From Chelativorans multitrophicus (GTDB taxonomy: Bacteria > Pseudomonadota > Alphaproteobacteria > Rhizobiales > Rhizobiaceae), in the NCBI RefSeq assembly GCF_011317445.1, contig NZ_JAAAPL010000001.1:496001-560000 (forward strand): a stretch of DNA of 64,000 nt, written 5' to 3'. Made by a program: the position numbers and the translations under genes. Position 1 is the stretch's first letter. Each line of letters begins with the position of its first letter. Of the stretch, positions 743 through 64,000 are shown piece after piece. The notes beneath the pieces are model-generated. The model made no database searches and was not told the origin of the DNA. It saw only the letters and a list, made by a program, of their open reading frames with translations.

Positions 743-1483
743 ATGAGCCAGACAAGCCAAACCCGCTTCATCCCGCATTCCCCCTCGCCACCGGTTGAAT
801 GGCGAATCGAACCGGGCCTTACTCCCTACGAAAAGGCGCTTGCCTTCATGGAACAGCGCGCAGACGCCATCCGCGCCGGCACGGCGGGTGAGATGGTGTG
901 GCTGGTCGAGCACCCTCCCCTTTACACAGCCGGCACGAGCGCCAGCCCGGGCGACCTGCTCGATCCGAATCGCCTGCCCGTCTACCAGACCGGCCGCGGC
1001 GGCGAATACACTTATCATGGTCCGGGTCAGCGCGTGGCCTATGTCATGCTCGACCTGAAACGCCGGCGCGAGGACGTGCGCGCCTTCGTCACCGCGCTGG
1101 AGGATTGGATCATCGCCAGCCTCGCCCGTTTCAACATCCGTGGCGAGCGCCGGCAGGGACGCGTCGGGGTGTGGGTGGCGCGCCCGGAAAAATCCCCGCT
1201 GCCGGACGGAACGATCATGGAAGACAAGATCGCAGCCATCGGCATCCGTCTACGGCGCTGGGTGAGCTTTCACGGCATTGCCGTCAATGTGGAGCCGGAG
1301 CTTGCGCATTTTTCGGGCATCGTGCCCTGCGGAATCTCGGGCTTCGGCGTCACCAGCCTCGTCGATCTCGGCCTGCCCGTCACCATGGCCGATTTCGACG
1401 TTGCGCTAAAGGAAGCGTTCGAGGAGGTCTTCGGGGCAGCAGAGCCGCTTTTCGAAACGGATTCCCTGAAAAGGAGTGCCTGA
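743..1483 (+). CDS. lipB: Octanoyltransferase LipB (lipoyl-protein ligase)
   Basis: Transfers octanoate from octanoyl-ACP to a lysine of lipoyl domains, the first step of lipoate synthesis; GcvH, encoded at 31.7 kb here, is one expected target. The 246-residue product carries the LipB signature [12 protein letters not shown] (residues about 85-96), the lysine in [10 protein letters not shown] (K162) and the catalytic cysteine in VPCGISG (C196). The chosen ATG at 743 follows GGAGC and gives the family length; the reading frame is open further upstream (to about 653), but that part is basic, low in complexity and not conserved-looking. ggt follows after one base. Confidence 0.95.
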
Positions 1484-1484
1484 C

Positions 1485-3245
1485 ATGGGTGTAAGAGAAA
1501 CACTCGCCAAGGGCGCAATGGCTCTCGGCCTTCTCCTTGCCACACCCGCCCTGGCCCAGCAGGCGGCCGACACGCTTGCTCCCGAGATCGCCAGCGGTAC
1601 GGAGGAAAAGGCGCCCGTCAAGGCGCGCCGCCAGATGGTCGTCGCAGCCAATCCGCTTGCCGCCGAGGCGGGCCTGAAAATCCTGCGCGAGGGCGGCAGC
1701 GCGGCCGACGCGCTCGTTGCCGTGCAGACGGTGCTCGGTCTCGTCGAGCCACAATCCTCCGGCGTCGGCGGTGGCGCCTTCCTGGTCTGGTATGACGCTG
1801 AAAATGGAACGCTGACCACCTTCGACGGCCGTGAAACCGCGCCCGAAGCTGCGACGGCAGAGCTCTTCCTCGACGAGAAGGGCGAGCCGCTTGCCTTCTT
1901 CGATGCCGTCGTGGGCGGACGCTCCGTCGGGACACCGGGCGTGGTGCGGCTGATGGAAAAGGCGCACGAGCGCTACGGAACGCTTGATTGGAACATACTC
2001 TTCCAGCCTGCCATTACGCTGGCCGAGAACGGCTTTGAAGTCTCGCCACGGCTTCATGCGCTGATCGCCGCCGACAAAGGCAAGCTCGATAAGGAGGAAG
2101 CTGCGCGCGCCTACTTCTATGATGCGGACGGCGAGCCGCTGGACGAGGGCACGCTTTTGAAAAACCCTGACTACGCGCAGACATTGCGGGCGATCGGGGA
2201 AAAGGGCGCGGATGCTTTTTATACCGGAGAGATCGCCGAGAAGATCGTCGCTGCCGTGCAGAACCACCCGACAAATGCGGGGCTCCTCAGCCTTGAAGAT
2301 CTCGCCGCATACGAAGTCAGGGAGCGCCCGGCGGTCTGCGCGCCCTATCGCGGCTACGAACTGTGCGGCATGGGGCCGCCCTCCTCTGGTGCACTCACGA
2401 TCGGGCAGATCCTTGGCATGGTCTCGCATTTCGACCTTGGAGGGCTCGGCTCGGACGATCCGGAGAGCTGGCGCATTATCGGAGACGCGACCCGGCTCGC
2501 CTTCGCCGACCGGGAGCTTTACATGGCCGACAGCGATTTCGTCTCCATGCCGCAGGGGCTGCTGAACCCGGATTATCTAAAAGACCGCGCGTCCCTTATC
2601 CGCCGCCCGACCGCCCTTCCCGCGGAGGAGGTCAAGGCCGGTACTCCGCCGTGGGACAAGGCTGAGCTGCGCATCCCCGGTATCGACATGGAGCAGCCCT
2701 CGACGTCGCATTTCGTCATTGTGGACGAGGCAGGCAACATCGCCTCAATGACCACTTCCATCGAGAATGGTTTCGGCTCGCGGCAGATGGCGGCAGGCTT
2801 CCTGCTCAACAACCAGCTCACCGATTTCTCCTTCACCCCGGAGGAGGACGGAAAGGCCGTCGCCAACCGGGTGGAGCCGGGCAAGCGCCCCCGCTCCTCC
2901 ATGTCGCCCACTGTCGTGTTGCAGGACGGCAGGCCAGTCTTCGCCCTCGGTTCGCCCGGCGGCAGCAACATCATTCCCTATGTCGCCAACACCCTCATCG
3001 CGCTTATCGACTGGGATATGGACATGCAGCAGGCCATCTCGCTGCCCCATCTGACGAACCGCTTCGGCACCTATATATTGGAAGCCGGCACGCCGGCCGA
3101 GGAACTTGCCGATGACCTCACAGCATTGGGCTTTGAGGTTGAAGCCGGCGAACTCAATTCCGGCCTGCACGGCATCGCCTTCACATCAGAAGGGCTTGAA
3201 GGCGGCGCCGACCCGCGGCGAGAGGGCGTGGCGCTAGGTGACTAA
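1485..3245 (+). CDS. ggt: Gamma-glutamyltranspeptidase (glutathione hydrolase), exported
   Basis: Cleaves the gamma-glutamyl bond of glutathione and related peptides in the periplasm. The 586-residue precursor has a signal peptide ending near ATPALAQ, a large-subunit region with GGGAF (about residues 95-100), and the autoprocessing site STSHFVIVD. Thr407 corresponds to the N-terminal nucleophile of the small subunit. GSPGGSNIIPYV near residues 485-496 is the conserved glycine-rich motif. AAGGAG at 1471-1476 is well placed for ATG 1485; a GTG at 1476 would overlap that Shine-Dalgarno and is less likely. It may be co-transcribed with lipB. Confidence 0.95.
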   Translation: MGVRETLAKGAMALGLLLATPALAQQAADTLAPEIASGTEEKAPVKARRQMVVAANPLAAEAGLKILREGGSAADALVAVQTVLGLVEPQSSGVGGGAFLVWYDAENGTLTTFDGRETAPEAATAELFLDEKGEPLAFFDAVVGGRSVGTPGVVRLMEKAHERYGTLDWNILFQPAITLAENGFEVSPRLHALIAADKGKLDKEEAARAYFYDADGEPLDEGTLLKNPDYAQTLRAIGEKGADAFYTGEIAEKIVAAVQNHPTNAGLLSLEDLAAYEVRERPAVCAPYRGYELCGMGPPSSGALTIGQILGMVSHFDLGGLGSDDPESWRIIGDATRLAFADRELYMADSDFVSMPQGLLNPDYLKDRASLIRRPTALPAEEVKAGTPPWDKAELRIPGIDMEQPSTSHFVIVDEAGNIASMTTSIENGFGSRQMAAGFLLNNQLTDFSFTPEEDGKAVANRVEPGKRPRSSMSPTVVLQDGRPVFALGSPGGSNIIPYVANTLIALIDWDMDMQQAISLPHLTNRFGTYILEAGTPAEELADDLTALGFEVEAGELNSGLHGIAFTSEGLEGGADPRREGVALGD

Positions 3246-3285
3246 GCCGTCCATCCGCAGGGCAGCACCGCGCAAATAACGGCGG

Positions 3286-3372
3286 CTACAGGGCAAGAAT
3301 CCAGGTGACGGCAACAAGAACGAAGGAGCTGACTGCGACCAGCGAAGCGATATCATGAATGATGTCGGCCAT
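3286..3372 (-). CDS. 28-residue single-pass membrane peptide, probably SOS-controlled
   Basis: A very short reading frame: ATG at 3372, TAG at 3286-3288, with AGGAGA 7 nt before the start. The peptide begins MADIIHDIASLV and from about residue 9 to its last residue (ends VTWILAL) is hydrophobic, so a single inner-membrane helix is expected. Upstream lies a well-formed promoter whose spacer holds a GAAC-N7-GAAC LexA box. Length, topology and control resemble Caulobacter SidA (29 residues, SOS-induced division inhibitor) and E. coli TisB (29 residues, SOS-induced membrane toxin), but no sequence relationship is claimed. The coding call rests on Shine-Dalgarno, hydrophobic pattern and promoter. 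Confidence 0.6.
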   Translation of the reverse strand: MADIIHDIASLVAVSSFVLVAVTWILAL

Positions 3373-3417
3373 GGGATTTCTCCTGTGCACAAATGCAGAA
3401 CAGATCTTGATATGATC

Positions 3418-3446
3418 CTTATATGTTCTGATAATGTTCCGGTCAA
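3418..3446 (-). promoter_or_regulatory. LexA-box promoter of the 28-residue peptide gene
   Basis: On the minus strand TTGACC (3441-3446), a 17-nt spacer and TATAAG (3418-3423) form a near-consensus promoter. The spacer contains GAACATTATCAGAAC (3425-3439), an exact GAAC-N7-GAAC direct repeat, which is the established LexA operator form in Alphaproteobacteria. Bound LexA would sit between the -35 and -10 boxes. The expected transcript start is near 3411, leaving a leader of about 40 nt before ATG 3372. Confidence 0.65.
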
Positions 3447-3551
3447 CCCTGGATTTGCAGCCAGGTGCCGAACTGCATCAAAATTGATGCCGCATTGGAC
3501 CGGCTGTGCAGGTGGGCTCGGTTGGAGAAAGCATTGGCTGTGAGGTGATGA

Positions 3552-3905
3552 ATGAGGGTCAAGCGCATTGTTGCCAACATTTCCACGCCCGAGCTTGACG
3601 CGGCCAGACGTTTTTACGGCGACATACTCGGGCTGGAGGTGGTGATGGACCATGGCTGGATCACCACCTATGGCTCGAACGAGCAGATGCGGGTGCAGGT
3701 CAGCTTTGCCTCGGAAGGAGGCTCATCCACGCCAGTACCGGATTTGTCTATTGAAGTAGACGACCTTGAGGCGGCGCTGGAGCGGGTGCAAAAAGCAGGC
3801 GTTCCGATTGAATATGGCCCGGCGGACGAGCCGTGGGGCGTGCGCCGCTTTTACGTGCGGGATCCTTTTGGGAAGCTGGTCAACATCCTCGTCCACGCGG
3901 AATGA
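3552..3905 (+). CDS. VOC (glyoxalase/bleomycin-resistance fold) family protein
   Basis: A 117-residue single-module vicinal oxygen chelate protein. It shows the beta-alpha-beta-beta-beta layout: NISTPELDAARRFYGDILGL at residues 9-28, a central strand set (TTYGSNEQMRVQVSF), then VDDLEAALERVQKAG and a C-terminal strand ending DPFGKLVNIL. E/H positions usable as metal ligands are present, but no substrate can be named. The start at 3552 follows GAGG (3542-3545); an earlier ATG at 3548 is in another frame. It stands alone between the divergent small peptide gene and convergent lolD. Confidence 0.8.
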   Translation: MRVKRIVANISTPELDAARRFYGDILGLEVVMDHGWITTYGSNEQMRVQVSFASEGGSSTPVPDLSIEVDDLEAALERVQKAGVPIEYGPADEPWGVRRFYVRDPFGKLVNILVHAE

Positions 3906-3935: not shown

Positions 3936-4625
3936 TTATTTTGCCGGAAGCTCCACCACGCGCCCGTCGGAGAGGGTCACGCGGCGATCCATCCGGGCAG
4001 CAAGCTCTTCATTATGCGTCGCGATAAGCGCCGCCAAGCCCGAATGCCGGACGATGGCCTCAAGCGCCTCGAAGACATAGCCCGCGGTCACAGGATCCAG
4101 ATTGCCCGTCGGCTCGTCGGCAAGAAGCACCAGCGGGGCATTGGCCACTGCACGCGCGATTGCGACGCGCTGCTGTTCGCCGCCTGACAGCTCCGAAGGA
4201 CGATGCTCGGTGCGGGAACCAAGCTTCATATAAGCGAGAAGCTGGCCGGCGCGCTCCCTGGCTTCCGCAGGGCTCAAACCGGCGATGAGCTGCGGCATCA
4301 TCACATTTTCGATTGCGGTGAATTCAGGCAGGAGGTGGTGGAACTGGTAAACGAAGCCGATTTCCTTCCGGCGTATCTCCGTCCTCCGGTCGTCCGCAAG
4401 CCCGGCACAGGGCTGCCCGTTGACAATGACATCGCCGCCGTCGGGATGTTCCAGCAGGCCGGCGATGTGGAGCAGCGTCGATTTGCCGGTCCCGGAAGGT
4501 GCCACCAGCGCGACCATTTCGCCGGGCGCGAGCGTGAAATCGGCAGCTTTCAGGATGGTGAGCGTGTTCTGTCCCTGAACATAGTGCCGGTCGACCGACT
4601 TCAATTCCAATACGCTTGTCGGCAT
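3936..4625 (-). CDS. lolD: Lipoprotein-releasing ABC transporter ATPase LolD
   Basis: ATPase of the LolCDE-type complex that extracts outer-membrane lipoproteins from the inner membrane. The 229-residue product has Walker [10 protein letters not shown] (42-50), Q-loop region [14 protein letters not shown], signature [14 protein letters not shown] (146-159) and Walker [13 protein letters not shown] (166-177), the MacB/LolD subfamily pattern. Its ATG lies directly against the lolC stop (4626-4628), so the two are translationally coupled and form the end of the proS-lolC-lolD cluster. Confidence 0.93.
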
Positions 4626-5909
4626 CTACTCGTATCTCAAGGCGTCCACGGGATCGAGGCGCGAAGCGCGCCAGGCCGGAAACAGAGTTGCAAGGAAGGA
4701 AAGGATGAGGGCCATCAAGACCACGGAAATGGTTTCGCCACTTTCCATATCGGCGGGCAACTGGCTCAGGAAATACACTTCCGGATCGAAGATCACCGTG
4801 CCTGATAACCAGGTGAAGAACTCCCGGATGGATTCCACGTTCAGGCAGAGCATCGACCCGAGCACAAGGCCGGCGAAGGTTCCCGCCACACCGATCGAAG
4901 CACCCGCCATCAGGAAGATGCGCATGATAGAGCCGCTGGTGGCTCCCATCGTGCGCAGAATGGCTATGTCGTGGCTCTTGTCCTTCACCAGCATGATCAT
5001 GCCGGAAATGATGTTGAGCGCCGCCACCAGCACAATCATGGTCAGGATCATGAACATAACGTTCCGCTCGACCTGAAGGGCGGAGAAGAACACCTGATTT
5101 CGCTGGCGCCAGTCGCTAATGGAGACCGGGCGCATGGCCGCCTCCTCCACCAGTGGACGCAAGGTGCCGACATTGTCGGGATGATCAGCGAATACTTCGA
5201 TGAACTGTACCAGGCCTTCGACATTGAAGAAGAGCTGCGCCTCCTCCAGCGGCATATATATGATGGAGGCATCATATTCCGACATGCCGATCTCGAAGAC
5301 AGCCGTGACGGGATAGCTTTTCACGCGGGGTGTCGTGCCAAAGGGCGTCACATCGCCTTCCGGCGCAACAAGGGTGATGGAATCACCCACCGCCAGTCCG
5401 AGGCTCTGCGCCATGCGAGACCCGATTGCGACCCCCTGCCCCGCGGCAAAATCGACCAGCGAGCCGACACGAATGTTCTTTGCCACCAGATCGATCTTGG
5501 TGAGGTCTTCAGCACGCACACCACGGACGAGCGCGCCGCTACCGGCTCCGCTGCGACCGGAGGCAAGCACCTGCCCCTCCACGATCGGCATTGCGTCACG
5601 CACGCCTGGCACCTGGGCGATGCGTCCGGCGACCGCATCATAGTCGCTCAATGGTGAATCGACGGGCTGCACGATGATATGGCCGTTCACGCCCAGAATG
5701 CGTGTCAGGAGTTCGCCGCGAAAGCCGTTCATCACCGCCATCACCACAATAAGAGTGGCGACTCCGAGCATGATGCCCAGAAATGAAATCAGCGCGATCA
5801 CGGAAACGACGGTTTCCTTGCGGCGCGAGCGCAGATAGCGCCAAGCGACGAGGCGCTCGAAATAGGAGAAGGGTTTAATACCCCCTTTTGCCGCCTCGGC
5901 TCCGCTCAT
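4626..5909 (-). CDS. lolC: Lipoprotein-releasing ABC transporter permease LolC/LolE
   Basis: Membrane subunit partner of LolD. The 427-residue protein has an N-terminal helix (about 37-60, [19 protein letters not shown]), a large periplasmic domain (about 65-285) and three C-terminal helices ([20 protein letters not shown]; the region around [20 protein letters not shown]; and one near [15 protein letters not shown]), ending DPVDALRYE as FtsX/LolC proteins do. Only one permease gene is present beside lolD, as in many alphaproteobacteria where a single LolC/E-type protein probably acts as a homodimer (family knowledge). It overlaps the 3' end of proS by 4 nt. Confidence 0.92.
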
Positions 5910-7234
5910 CGACGCGCGCCGAACCGCCCGGGTACTGCCGAAATAGGCAAATTCTCACGCTCTCCCGTGGCTCGGTTCTTCACTTCAACTTCTCCGGCGG
6001 CTATTCCACGCGGGCCGACGATTACCTGCCAGGGAAGACCGATGAGATCAGCCGTCGCAAACTTCGCGCCGGCGCGCTGATCCGTGTCGTCGTAAAGCAC
6101 CTCGCGACCGGCCGCCGTCATCCCGGCGTATAGCTCCTCGCAAACGCGGTCACATTCCGCATCGCCCACTTTCATATTTATGAGCGCCACATCGAAGGGA
6201 GCCACGCTTTCCGGCCAGATAATTCCGCCATCATCATGGCTCGCCTCGATAATCGCGGCGGTAAGCCGCGTCGGGCCGATGCCATAGGAACCCATGGAAA
6301 CGAAGTGTTCCTGCCCGTCCGGCCCCGTCACCTTCGCGTTCATCGGCTTGGAATATTTCGTGCCGAAATGGAAGATATGGCCAACTTCAATGCCGCGCGC
6401 GGCAAGCTGCTTTTCCGCCGGCACCTCGGCCCATGCGGCCTCGTCATGCATCTCGTCCGTCGCCGCATAGGGTGTGGTCCACTCCGAAACCACGCCGCCG
6501 ATCTCCGCATCATTGGTGAAATCGACATCGGCCGGCGGCACCGGAAGGTCCAAAAAGTCCTTATTGCAGAAAACCTCGCTTTCGCCCGTTGAGGCGAGAA
6601 TGATGAATTCGTGGCTCAAATCGCCGCCGATCGGGCCCGTATCGGCTCGCATGGGAATAGCCTTCAGGCCCATGCGGGCGAAAGTTCTAAGATAGGCCAC
6701 GAACATGCGATTATAGGCCGCCTTGGCGCCCTCGTAATCGAGGTCGAAGCTGTAAGCGTCCTTCATCAGGAACTCACGGGAGCGCATGACGCCGAAACGC
6801 GGCCGCACCTCGTCGCGGAACTTCCATTGGATGTGATAAAGATTGAGCGGCAGATCCTTGTAGGATTTCACATAGGCCCGGAAGATATCCGTCACCATCT
6901 CTTCATTGGTGGGTCCGTAGAGCATGGCGCGATCCTGCCGGTCGCGGATGCGCAGCATCTCCTTGCCATAATCGTTGTAACGGCCGCTCTCGATCCATAG
7001 ATCGGCCGACTGAATGGTGGGCATCAGGATTTCCTGGGCGCCCGCGCGATCCTGCTCCTCGCGGACGATCTGGCACACCTTGTCGAGAACGCGCTTGCCG
7101 AGAGGCAGCCACGAGAAACTGCCCGCCCCCTGCTGCCGGATCATGCCGGAGCGGAGCATAAGCCTATGCGAGACGATTTCAGCCTCGCGGGGTGTCTCCT
7201 TCAATATGGGCAAAAAGTAACGCGATACACGCAT
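5906..7234 (-). CDS. proS: Prolyl-tRNA synthetase, short bacterial form
   Basis: Charges tRNA-Pro with proline. At 442 residues it is the short form that lacks the inserted editing domain of the E. coli type, common in Alphaproteobacteria. Class II motifs are visible: motif 1 around [20 protein letters not shown], motif 2 [20 protein letters not shown] (about residues 139-158) and motif 3 [15 protein letters not shown]-terminal anticodon-binding domain starts near residue 345. No strong Shine-Dalgarno precedes ATG 7234. The stop overlaps lolC, pointing to one transcript with lolC and lolD. Confidence 0.96.
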
Positions 7235-34967: not shown

Positions 34968-35041
34968 ATCCGGTTGGCTAAAAGCGGTTCTTCGGTTAAG
35001 AGCCGTCCACAACCACCGAACGGAACCGGAACGGCCTTCGC

Positions 35042-58046: not shown

Positions 58047-59267
58047 ATGGACTCGCTGATCACCGCCGCTGCACGCGCTCTCTCGGCTGGCGACCCCCTC
58101 GCTGCGCTGAAGAGGGTCGCATTGCGCGATGACCCGCCCGCACTGGCGTTGCGTGGCATCGCGATGGCGCAGCTCGGCGACCTCACGCGCGCCAGGGAGC
58201 TTCTGCGAAGCGCGGCACGTGCCTTCGGCCCGAAAGAGCCTGTGGCCCGTGCGCGTTGTGCCGTCGCCGAAGCCGAAATCGCCCTTGTTACGCGCGATCT
58301 TGGCCGGTCGTTGCAAACGCTCGACGCAGCGCGGGCGGTGCTCGAAGCTTCAGGCGACCGATGGAACGCAGCGCACGCTGCCTATCTCGAAGCCCGGCAT
58401 CTTCTCCTGATCGGCCGTCTCGATGAAGCTGAAAAGGTGCTCGATGCGTTCGATGCCGGCGCTCTGCCACCCGCTTCGCTGGTCGGGCGCGAATTGGTGG
58501 TGGCGGGCATAGCCATCCGTCGCATCAGGACGGAGCCAGCGAGAACCGCTCTGGAACGGGCAAGACGGGCAGCGGAAGACGCGCGCATTCCAGCGCTTTT
58601 GGCCGAGGTCGACCAGGCAGTGCGGGCGTTCGGGGCCCCGGCGGCGCGCTTCGTGAGACGCGACGTCGAGCGGTTGCTCCATCTCGAAGAGGTCGAAAGG
58701 CTATTTGGCTCCGATACGCTCATTGTGGATGCCTGCCGCAACATCGTACGTGCGGGGACAAAGATCGTTCCGCTCGCCGCCCGTCCGGTGCTGCTCGCAC
58801 TCATCCGTGCCCTTGCGGAGGCATGGCCGGAGGATGTACCGCGCGAAACGCTTCTCCAACGTGCTTTCCGGGCACGGCATTCCGACGAGTCGCATCGCGC
58901 GCGATTGCGTGTCGAAATTGCCCGGCTGCGTGAGGCGATCAAACCGCTGGCGGCGCTGAGTGCAACCAAGCGGGGCTTTGTCCTGCGGCCTCACGCTGCG
59001 GGCAGTGTTGCCGTGCTGGCCCCGCCCATCGAAGGCGATCATGCAGAAGTGCTCGCTCTGCTCGGCGACGGCGAAGCCTGGTCGAGTTCCGCATTGGCAC
59101 TGGCTCTGAGCGTTAGCTCGCGAACGGTACAGCGGGCACTCGAAGAGCTTGCCCAGGACAACAAGGTCGAGGCCTTCGGGCGCGGGCGGGCCCGCCGCTG
59201 GATCGCTTCGAGCGTGCCGGGATTCCCGACAAGCTTGTTACTCCCCGCCGCGGGAATTTCCAGCTAG
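58047..59267 (+). CDS. TPR-like protein with C-terminal winged helix, probable transcription regulator
   Basis: A 406-residue protein without a named family. The N-terminal ~200 residues are TPR-like alpha-helical repeats (ALRGIAMAQLGDLTRARELL, AHAAYLEARHLLLIGRLDEA). A middle section (ETLLQRAFRARHSDESHRAR) looks like a winged-helix effector domain (OmpR-like), and the C-terminus (SSSALALALSVSSRTVQRAL) is an HTH. It is divergent from the membrane-protein/DUF899 pair, which it may control, and 9 nt upstream of a beta-propeller gene. No strong Shine-Dalgarno before ATG 58047. Confidence 0.6.
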   Translation: MDSLITAAARALSAGDPLAALKRVALRDDPPALALRGIAMAQLGDLTRARELLRSAARAFGPKEPVARARCAVAEAEIALVTRDLGRSLQTLDAARAVLEASGDRWNAAHAAYLEARHLLLIGRLDEAEKVLDAFDAGALPPASLVGRELVVAGIAIRRIRTEPARTALERARRAAEDARIPALLAEVDQAVRAFGAPAARFVRRDVERLLHLEEVERLFGSDTLIVDACRNIVRAGTKIVPLAARPVLLALIRALAEAWPEDVPRETLLQRAFRARHSDESHRARLRVEIARLREAIKPLAALSATKRGFVLRPHAAGSVAVLAPPIEGDHAEVLALLGDGEAWSSSALALALSVSSRTVQRALEELAQDNKVEAFGRGRARRWIASSVPGFPTSLLLPAAGISS

Positions 59268-62966: not shown

Positions 62967-63356
62967 CCCTGTTCTCCCGGAAAATAGGCGCGGAAAGACC
63001 ACCCGCGCCAAATGCTTGTCAACTGTTCTGGCAAAGACATCGAAGGACGGCAAGTCCCCCACCACCCCGCCTAGCAATATGAATCGATTGAATAATTATG
63101 GCGGGCAATTTGCTTATCGGCCATGCGTCCTGGCCGTCCCGGGCTCGCGCGACTGAACCACTGTTGAACAAATTTTGAACCAGCCCGTCCCGCGTCTCGT
63201 TTATGCGTGCTTTTCTTTGCGAAATTCCGATTTTGTTTCCGATACTTACCAAATGCCGGGTCCAAGGCTGCCACGGGATTGCCTCGAAAAGGCCCAAGTC
63301 TTTTCATCCGCAGGCGATCTGGTACATAATCGCGCCTTCCCAAGACGGAGGCCACG
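62967..63356. other. Spacer between divergent glpX and cfa
   Basis: No supported gene in this 390-nt stretch. Short frames on either strand (for example a 17-codon minus-strand frame from 63124) lack support. It holds a triple GAAC repeat (63155-63180) and must contain the glpX and cfa promoters; none could be pinned down with confidence. The cfa ribosome site GGAGG is at about 63348-63352. Confidence 0.4.
63155..63180. promoter_or_regulatory. Triple GAAC direct repeat, LexA-box-like
   Basis: GAAC at 63155-63158, 63166-63169 and 63177-63180, each pair separated by exactly 7 nt, so the sequence holds two overlapping GAAC-N7-GAAC boxes at 11-bp spacing. The single-box form is the alphaproteobacterial LexA operator. 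No promoter is clearly matched to it. Chance occurrence of one box in this window is plausible; two in phase is much less so. Confidence 0.4.
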
Positions 63357-64000
63357 ATGAATCCTCTGCTCCAAAAATTGGCGTCCAGCCTGATACAAAG
63401 CGGATCGCTTACGATCACGGATGCGGATGGGGGGGTGCACCGGTTCGGTGACGGATCGGGCGAGCCTGTTCATATCGTCATCCATTCCCGTCGCGCCGAG
63501 CGCGCCATTGCCCTTGATCCCATGCTGTCCGTTCCCGAAAGCTATATGGGGGGCGAAGTCGACTTCCTCGAAGGCGATCCGCTGCGTCTTCTCAAGGTGG
63601 CATACCAGAATTTCGAACACGGCGGCGCGGAAGCCCTCGCGATGAAGGTCGGCGAGGGTATCCGCTACCTCTTCCGCAGATTGCATCAATTCAATCCAGC
63701 CGGCCGTTCCAAGCGCAATGTTGCGCGCCACTACGACCTCTCCGGCGAGATGTACAAGCTCTTCCTCGACGAGGACATGCAGTATTCCTGCGCCTATTAC
63801 CCTGATCCGGACATTTCTCTGGAGGAGGCCCAAAAGCTCAAGAAGAGTCACATCATGGCAAAGCTGGCGCTTGAGCCCGGCCAGAAGGTGCTCGATATCG
63901 GCTCGGGCTGGGGCGGGCTTGGCCTCGATATTGCTCGCCAGTTCGATGCCAATGTGCTGGGCGTCACGCTTTCGGAGGAACAGCACGCGGTATCGCAGCG
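63357..64000 (+). CDS. cfa: Cyclopropane-fatty-acyl-phospholipid synthase, 5' part
   Basis: S-adenosylmethionine-dependent methylene transfer to unsaturated phospholipid acyl chains in the inner membrane. The first 214 codons are in the window; the gene runs off the right edge. Visible motifs: FNPAGRSKRNVARHYDLSGE, the FLDEDMQYSCAYYPDPDISL segment, and the SAM-binding GQKVLDIGSGWGGLGLDIA (about residues 175-195). ATG 63357 has GGAGG 5-8 nt upstream. Confidence 0.93.
   Translation, partial: MNPLLQKLASSLIQSGSLTITDADGGVHRFGDGSGEPVHIVIHSRRAERAIALDPMLSVPESYMGGEVDFLEGDPLRLLKVAYQNFEHGGAEALAMKVGEGIRYLFRRLHQFNPAGRSKRNVARHYDLSGEMYKLFLDEDMQYSCAYYPDPDISLEEAQKLKKSHIMAKLALEPGQKVLDIGSGWGGLGLDIARQFDANVLGVTLSEEQHAVSQ

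Follow-up and report, generated by a model that had tools for sequence, protein, structure and literature searches.

The window, that is the whole 64-kb stretch of DNA analysed here, carries on its minus strand, between positions 3446 and 3286, a promoter, an operator, a short leader and a small reading frame in close succession. The -35 element TTGACC (3441-3446, minus strand) and the -10 element TATAAG (3418-3423, minus strand) are separated by a 17-nt spacer, inside which lies the LexA operator GAACATTATCAGAAC (3425-3439, minus strand), a motif of the form GAAC-N7-GAAC. A 5' leader of about 39 nt (3373-3411, minus strand), whose start site was placed from the position of the promoter, contains the Shine-Dalgarno sequence AGGAGA (3379-3384, minus strand) 6 nt 5' of the ATG and leads into a sidA-like gene (3286-3372, minus strand; ATG at 3372, stop codon TAG at 3288-3286) for the 28-residue single-helix peptide MADIIHDIASLVAVSSFVLVAVTWILAL. 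The original prediction had described TTGACC and TATAAG 17 nt apart with the box in the spacer, a leader of about 40 nt, AGGAGA and a frame of 28 codons, and all of these were confirmed. The promoter was absent from the output of a simple promoter scanner, because TATAAG does not end in the T that this scanner requires; promoter-like sites on the plus strand were listed at 3407-3435 and 3329-3356. Two degenerate half-sites (GATC-N7-GATC, 3403-3417, minus strand) stand in the same 11-bp register as the operator and possibly extend the LexA array; a third GAAC in register precedes the peptide in some other genera among the family loci.

The peptide gene lies downstream of proS (5906-7234), lolC (4626-5909) and lolD (3936-4625), all on the minus strand, names which we take to apply on the basis of synteny and of their Pfam domains (class II tRNA synthetase core and anticodon domains, MacB_PCD and FtsX domains, and an ABC transporter domain, respectively). 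On its other side it converges with a gene assigned by Pfam to gamma-glutamyltranspeptidase (ggt, 1476-3245, plus strand). Among 15 loci of the genus, which exclude a chance match of genome G006 (L034), the peptide gene is downstream of and codirectional with lolD in 14, lolD being inverted in the remaining one (L029), and it converges with ggt or lipB in 12. A plasmid gene was ruled out, as no plasmid match was found and the locus is syntenic. The idea that the window copy came from a prophage was likewise rejected, because its six annotated neighbours are genes of housekeeping type.

The LexA box and the frame within the genus

Exact copies of GAAC-N7-GAAC occur at five sites in the window against 1.54 expected and at 154 sites genome-wide against 117 for the pattern read backwards. 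By these counts the box by itself is little proof; going by the genome counts, any one stretch of 120 bases, read on one strand, would contain an exact box in about 0.2% of cases, a figure that may differ for AT-rich spacers. The motif is nevertheless the LexA operator of this genome, because it stands upstream of lexA (exact), upstream of recA (with one mismatch) and at loci of DnaE-type polymerases. The latter comprise two extra DnaE-type polymerase domains (G000:C9:41294-42058 and 629667-630431; L099 and L098), each with an exact box about 3 kb upstream, and probably represent two damage-mutagenesis cassettes.

The DNA from the -35 element into the frame is conserved in the genus, and by this conservation the box rises above chance. 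A DNA search with positions 3240-3560 against 81 genomes gave 19 matching genomes, own genome included. In 14 of the 15 same-genus relatives the match starts no more than two bases from the -35 element, and its far end falls anywhere from codon 19 to six bases beyond the stop codon (two matches end in codon 19, eight in codon 25, and four extend to the stop); the remaining four matches, one of them in the same-genus genome G006, cover 20 to 40 bases and were given no weight. A peptide profile search found the peptide in all 16 genus genomes, own included, and the operator is exact in 14 of these 16 and has one mismatch in the other two (L007 and L414). In the 15 genus loci the elements are kept to different degrees: TTGAC at the -35 position in all 15, the exact box in 14, CACAGGAG at the Shine-Dalgarno position in 11, TATAAG in eight and both GATC half-sites in seven. 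Over the 15 genus frames pN/pS was 0.32, pairwise differences by codon position numbered 662, 329 and 1361, an excess at third positions, and column identity was 0.83 in the frame versus 0.43 in the 60 bases that follow it. The frame is under codon-level selection in the genus. An alignment across relatives had been set beforehand as the test of the original prediction, and it found box and peptide frame conserved in the genus.

Several further boxes were observed. Three GAAC half-sites in 11-bp register (GAACCACTGTTGAACAAATTTTGAAC) lie at 63155-63180 of the window (plus strand), a possible further LexA-array promoter; some 180 bases separate them from a frame at 63357, methyltransferase-like by eye, that follows. 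Other exact sites in the window are at 35018-35032 and 58543-58557 (plus strand). Elsewhere in the genome (G000), identical boxes, GAACGGATGGTGAAC or GAACGGATCGTGAAC, recur at C1:18642/18730 and 22447/22534, C2:59314, C5:30/30821 and C6:32/17861; some of them are paired 87-88 bases apart and some are close to contig ends, and they are probably part of a repeated element.

Box and peptide across the family and the order

A profile built from the genus peptides was searched against 101 family genomes and matched 76 of them at E values up to 1, many of these matches being noise, and 42 at E values below 1e-3. An exact box stands upstream in 27 of the 30 best family matches (two of the 30 are genus members), and a box with one mismatch in one (L060); L054 is a phage-like region without a box, and in L064 the upstream DNA is covered for 11 bases only. 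The next 28 family loci comprise 19 with and nine without an exact box. Six of these nine are in phage-like regions (L096 being the same locus as L054), one (L095) is a chance match, and two, L079 and L072, lie beside dnaE. L079 has a box with one mismatch. L072 (genome G095), a locus of chromosomal type beside lolD and dnaE, shows no box in 120 bases even when one mismatch is allowed, which may mean that SOS control has been lost there or that the operator has moved. Two overlapping exact boxes (GAAC-N7-GAAC-N7-GAAC) precede the peptide in L042, L046, L048, L049, L050, L057, L058 and L061, an arrangement that suggests a LexA array of three half-sites. In the 1.9-Mb genome G119 an exact box and the peptide occur together (L082), and neither lolD nor dnaE is found within its 4-kb stretch.

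A broader profile was run against 20 of the 25 family genomes that had been unmatched earlier and matched 16 of them at E values up to 0.1, leaving four with no match. Of 16 loci checked, namely 15 of those rescued and that of G006, 15 carry exact boxes and all 16 a box within one mismatch. At the level of the order, the profile search matched 67 of 199 genomes at E values up to 0.01; the 132 without a match at this threshold may lack the gene or may have escaped the short profile. Among the 28 newly fetched order loci the box is exact in 25 and one mismatch away in the other three; in 27 of the 28, lolC/lolD or dnaE adjoins the peptide. Although some of the peptides behind the search profile had first been located through their box, these new order loci were chosen and ranked by peptide score alone, so that the box at them counts as evidence in its own right. 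A chance box was thereby ruled out.

A single script was also applied to 33 named genomes of Hyphomicrobiales, Caulobacterales and their neighbours, and box and peptide were found together in 26 of them (18 with exact and eight with one-mismatch boxes), a tally that scanned whole stretches of unequal lengths and was not blind, because its criteria were set after some of those loci were known. On the opposite strand the same script gave no match in 253,742 bases. The peptide of Brevundimonas poindexterae was missed by the script and added by eye; the script found none in two Methylobacterium, one Xanthobacteraceae bacterium, one Hyphomicrobium, Brevundimonas bacteroides and one Parvularculaceae MAG.

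In 13 of the 58 family-level loci, and also in many order-level loci, the peptide has lolD on one side and dnaE on the other, and the order lolD-peptide-dnaE is common to many Hyphomicrobiales and Caulobacterales, suggesting that this was the ancestral arrangement. In the window genome the lolD side has been kept, and dnaE is found near C1:296,000, about 200 kb from the peptide gene. Conversely, the peptide of Hoeflea is beside dnaE, and about 560 kb separate it from lolD. Because either neighbour can be this distant, the peptide seems to serve neither of them.

Relation to Caulobacter SidA

The interval from lolD to dnaE contains a frame of 29 codons in four isolates and one MAG of Caulobacter, and two annotated Caulobacter intervals read lolD, inosine-uridine nucleoside hydrolase, 29-residue frame, dnaE. 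We take CC1927 to be sidA. In the sources available, the tag CCNA_02004 is given to sidA (PMC10769358), CCNA_02005 to an inosine-uridine nucleoside hydrolase (PMC3667746) and CC1926 to dnaE (PMC1839093), and SidA is described as an inner-membrane protein of 29 residues that acts on FtsW (PMC4211646). Since both gene order and length agree with these published tags, the Caulobacter frame was equated with SidA, an identification made by position and length in sister species of C. crescentus and not by the letters of SidA itself.

The sequences of the two groups are related at a detectable level. When a profile of 49 family peptides was compared with a profile of 11 peptides from Caulobacter, Phenylobacterium, Asticcacaulis, Oceanicaulis and Robiginitomaculum, the P value was 2e-6 and the probability 89.5, the alignment being ungapped and running from residue 1 to residue 1, and Phe17 is invariant in 31 of 31 diverse members. 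Individually, five Caulobacteraceae peptides are 18-29% identical to the window peptide. When shuffled sequences were scored, 0 to 3 of 300 shuffles reached the real score for ten Caulobacteraceae peptides, 0 to 2 of 300 for five peptides of the Rhodopseudomonas/Bradyrhizobium type, 0 of 300 for Devosia and Cucumibacter and 1 of 300 for Alsobacter, tests which are not independent because the peptides are related to each other. The peptides of Oceanicaulis, Robiginitomaculum and two Microvirga failed this test (56 to 115 of 300), and their membership is by locus and box only.

The window gene thus resembles Caulobacter sidA in its LexA-type promoter, its length of 28-29 residues, its one predicted helix, its locus beside lolD and ancestrally dnaE, and its detectable sequence similarity. 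It differs in that its box is exact, whereas the Caulobacter species examined have one-mismatch boxes only, in that dnaE has moved away and no nucleoside hydrolase gene adjoins, and in that its peptide has neither Arg nor Lys, whereas two Arg close to the N-terminus are found in several Caulobacter-type peptides. Since locus, operator, selection on the frame and profile similarity agree, we consider it very probable that the window gene is the orthologue of Caulobacter sidA and, as far as its sequence can tell, a damage-induced inhibitor of FtsW-dependent division. In the undamaged cell, LexA bound to GAAC-N7-GAAC between the -35 and -10 elements would keep the gene off, and the GATC half-sites in register would perhaps be bound as well. 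Upon DNA damage, active RecA would promote the self-cleavage of LexA, allowing a short mRNA and the 28-residue peptide to be made, and the peptide would presumably insert, as a single helix, into the inner membrane. It would most likely act there as SidA does and keep the septal wall-synthesis complex of FtsW, FtsI and FtsN inactive, so that division would be halted and cells would elongate until repair is complete. In Caulobacter, SidA and DidA are thought to bar FtsW/FtsI/FtsN from the active state, according to the available text of PMC4211646, and loss of sidA in addition to lexA is described as giving a mutant that is not filamentous in that of PMC12700426.

The original prediction had left two possibilities, a division inhibitor like SidA or a membrane toxin like TisB; conservation supports this guess as a whole, and synteny and the profile comparison favour its SidA arm. 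TisB of E. coli is an SOS-induced membrane peptide of similar length, and a toxin of this type would depolarise the membrane and promote dormancy rather than block the divisome. SOS control, size and a single helix fit it equally well. The window gene, however, is at the sidA locus and its product resembles the Caulobacter peptides; searches of Pfam and NCBIfam at E values up to 10 matched the peptide to no family (we assume that Pfam contains a TisB model), and an Rfam search of 3200-3600 found no match, so that no known RNA family was seen nearby, although an antisense antitoxin RNA of a new kind could exist. Moreover, the best 19-residue hydropathy of the peptide is 2.40, in line with the predicted single membrane helix, and its hydrophobic moment is low (0.14), values that fit a transmembrane helix buried in the bilayer better than an amphipathic helix that forms pores. 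A toxin of the TisB type is therefore unlikely.

It is also conceivable that the peptide shares its ancestor with SidA and that its target in Rhizobiaceae is a different one, either another part of the divisome or the polar elongation machinery of Hyphomicrobiales; Rhizobiales grow unipolarly, as the accessible part of PMC7327166 states. The net charge of the window peptide is -2 versus +1 in three of the five Caulobacteraceae peptides scored and 0 in the other two, and this difference in N-terminal charge means that topology or contacts could differ; identity between the groups is also low. Against this, the invariant Phe17 and a profile match without gaps point to a contact surface common to both groups, and we regard a different target as very unlikely. 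That the frame is instead an upstream leader peptide controlling a downstream gene, originally dnaE, with no function as a product, is barely credible: dnaE adjoins the peptide in many genomes and Ribo-seq detected a translated frame, sORF25, in the dnaE1 5'-UTR of S. meliloti (the available text of PMC10117765), yet box and frame are kept in the window genome, where the distance to dnaE rules out a dnaE leader, lolD is far off in Hoeflea, the next gene here, ggt, converges, the helix residues are conserved, and a related frame stands among phage genes in a prophage of this genome. The S. meliloti sORF25 may be the same gene as that of the window peptide.

Inhibition of division in the course of the SOS response is also carried out by YneA, SosA and SulA, which are larger or unrelated proteins. 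Of these, YneA acts on FtsW, as stated in the part of PMC13396833 available. DidA, in the accessible text of PMC4211646, is likewise a small peptide with one helix, and after damage it blocks the division that depends on FtsW/I/N, but it has 71 residues, is activated by DriD and is SOS-independent, in contrast to the 28 residues and the LexA operator found here, and the window gene is not assigned to it.

We found no mention of this peptide family, that is of SidA outside Caulobacter, in the available portions of the literature searched, which included PMC4211646, PMC12700426, PMC13384398, PMC9578287, PMC10769358 and PMC10811719; Modell 2011 and Erill 2004 were outside its scope, so that the family may have been noticed earlier. 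In the same portions of the literature, division arrest after DNA damage in Hyphomicrobiales appeared to be an open subject, for which a candidate with a clear locus and operator is now offered, and the dozens of natural variants provide an alignment for mapping the contact with FtsW.

Copies in prophages and viral contigs

The window genome has a second member of the family, MRDLLQDISSLIAVTAFVLVAGAYLGAL (G000:C1:348911-348997; L069 2012-2098), and the 120 bases upstream of it contain no box even when one mismatch is allowed. It lies in a prophage with genes for a terminase, a DnaB-like helicase, a CI-like repressor, exonuclease VIII, RecT and an integrase, and the peptide is found among the early genes. 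Five more box-less copies in the family are near phage-type genes, strongly so in L074, L088 and L094 and weakly so in L080 and L096, and three box-less copies are present on IMG/VR contigs (L255, L406 and L407). Because the L255 peptide is identical letter for letter to that of the own prophage, and the L406 peptide, whose contig is as long as that of L074, to the L074 peptide, the viral and prophage copies are not all independent. GenBank phages gave a single match at chance level (E 7), no convincing SidA-like peptide was seen among the matches listed for the loci of viral contigs, at least 120, that combine a box with a Shine-Dalgarno sequence, and two viral pattern matches, L408 and L409, were dropped as not being such peptides. 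These box-less relatives in the own prophage, in phage-like regions of relatives and on three viral contigs are new.

The simplest reading suggested by the sequences is that phages captured a division brake of their hosts, and the phage copies suggest that the same tool was taken up by them. We lean slightly towards a broader view, in which SidA would not be peculiar to Caulobacter and would go back to an ancestral brake on division under SOS control, in Hyphomicrobiales and Caulobacterales at least, that was overlooked because it has only about 28-33 codons, and in which temperate phages of these hosts would have captured it, dropped the LexA operator and placed it among early genes, so that phage induction and not DNA damage would stop host division. 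The phage proteins Kil and DicB are known blockers of host division, and the prophage copies, which match the SidA-like profile, may work in a similar manner.
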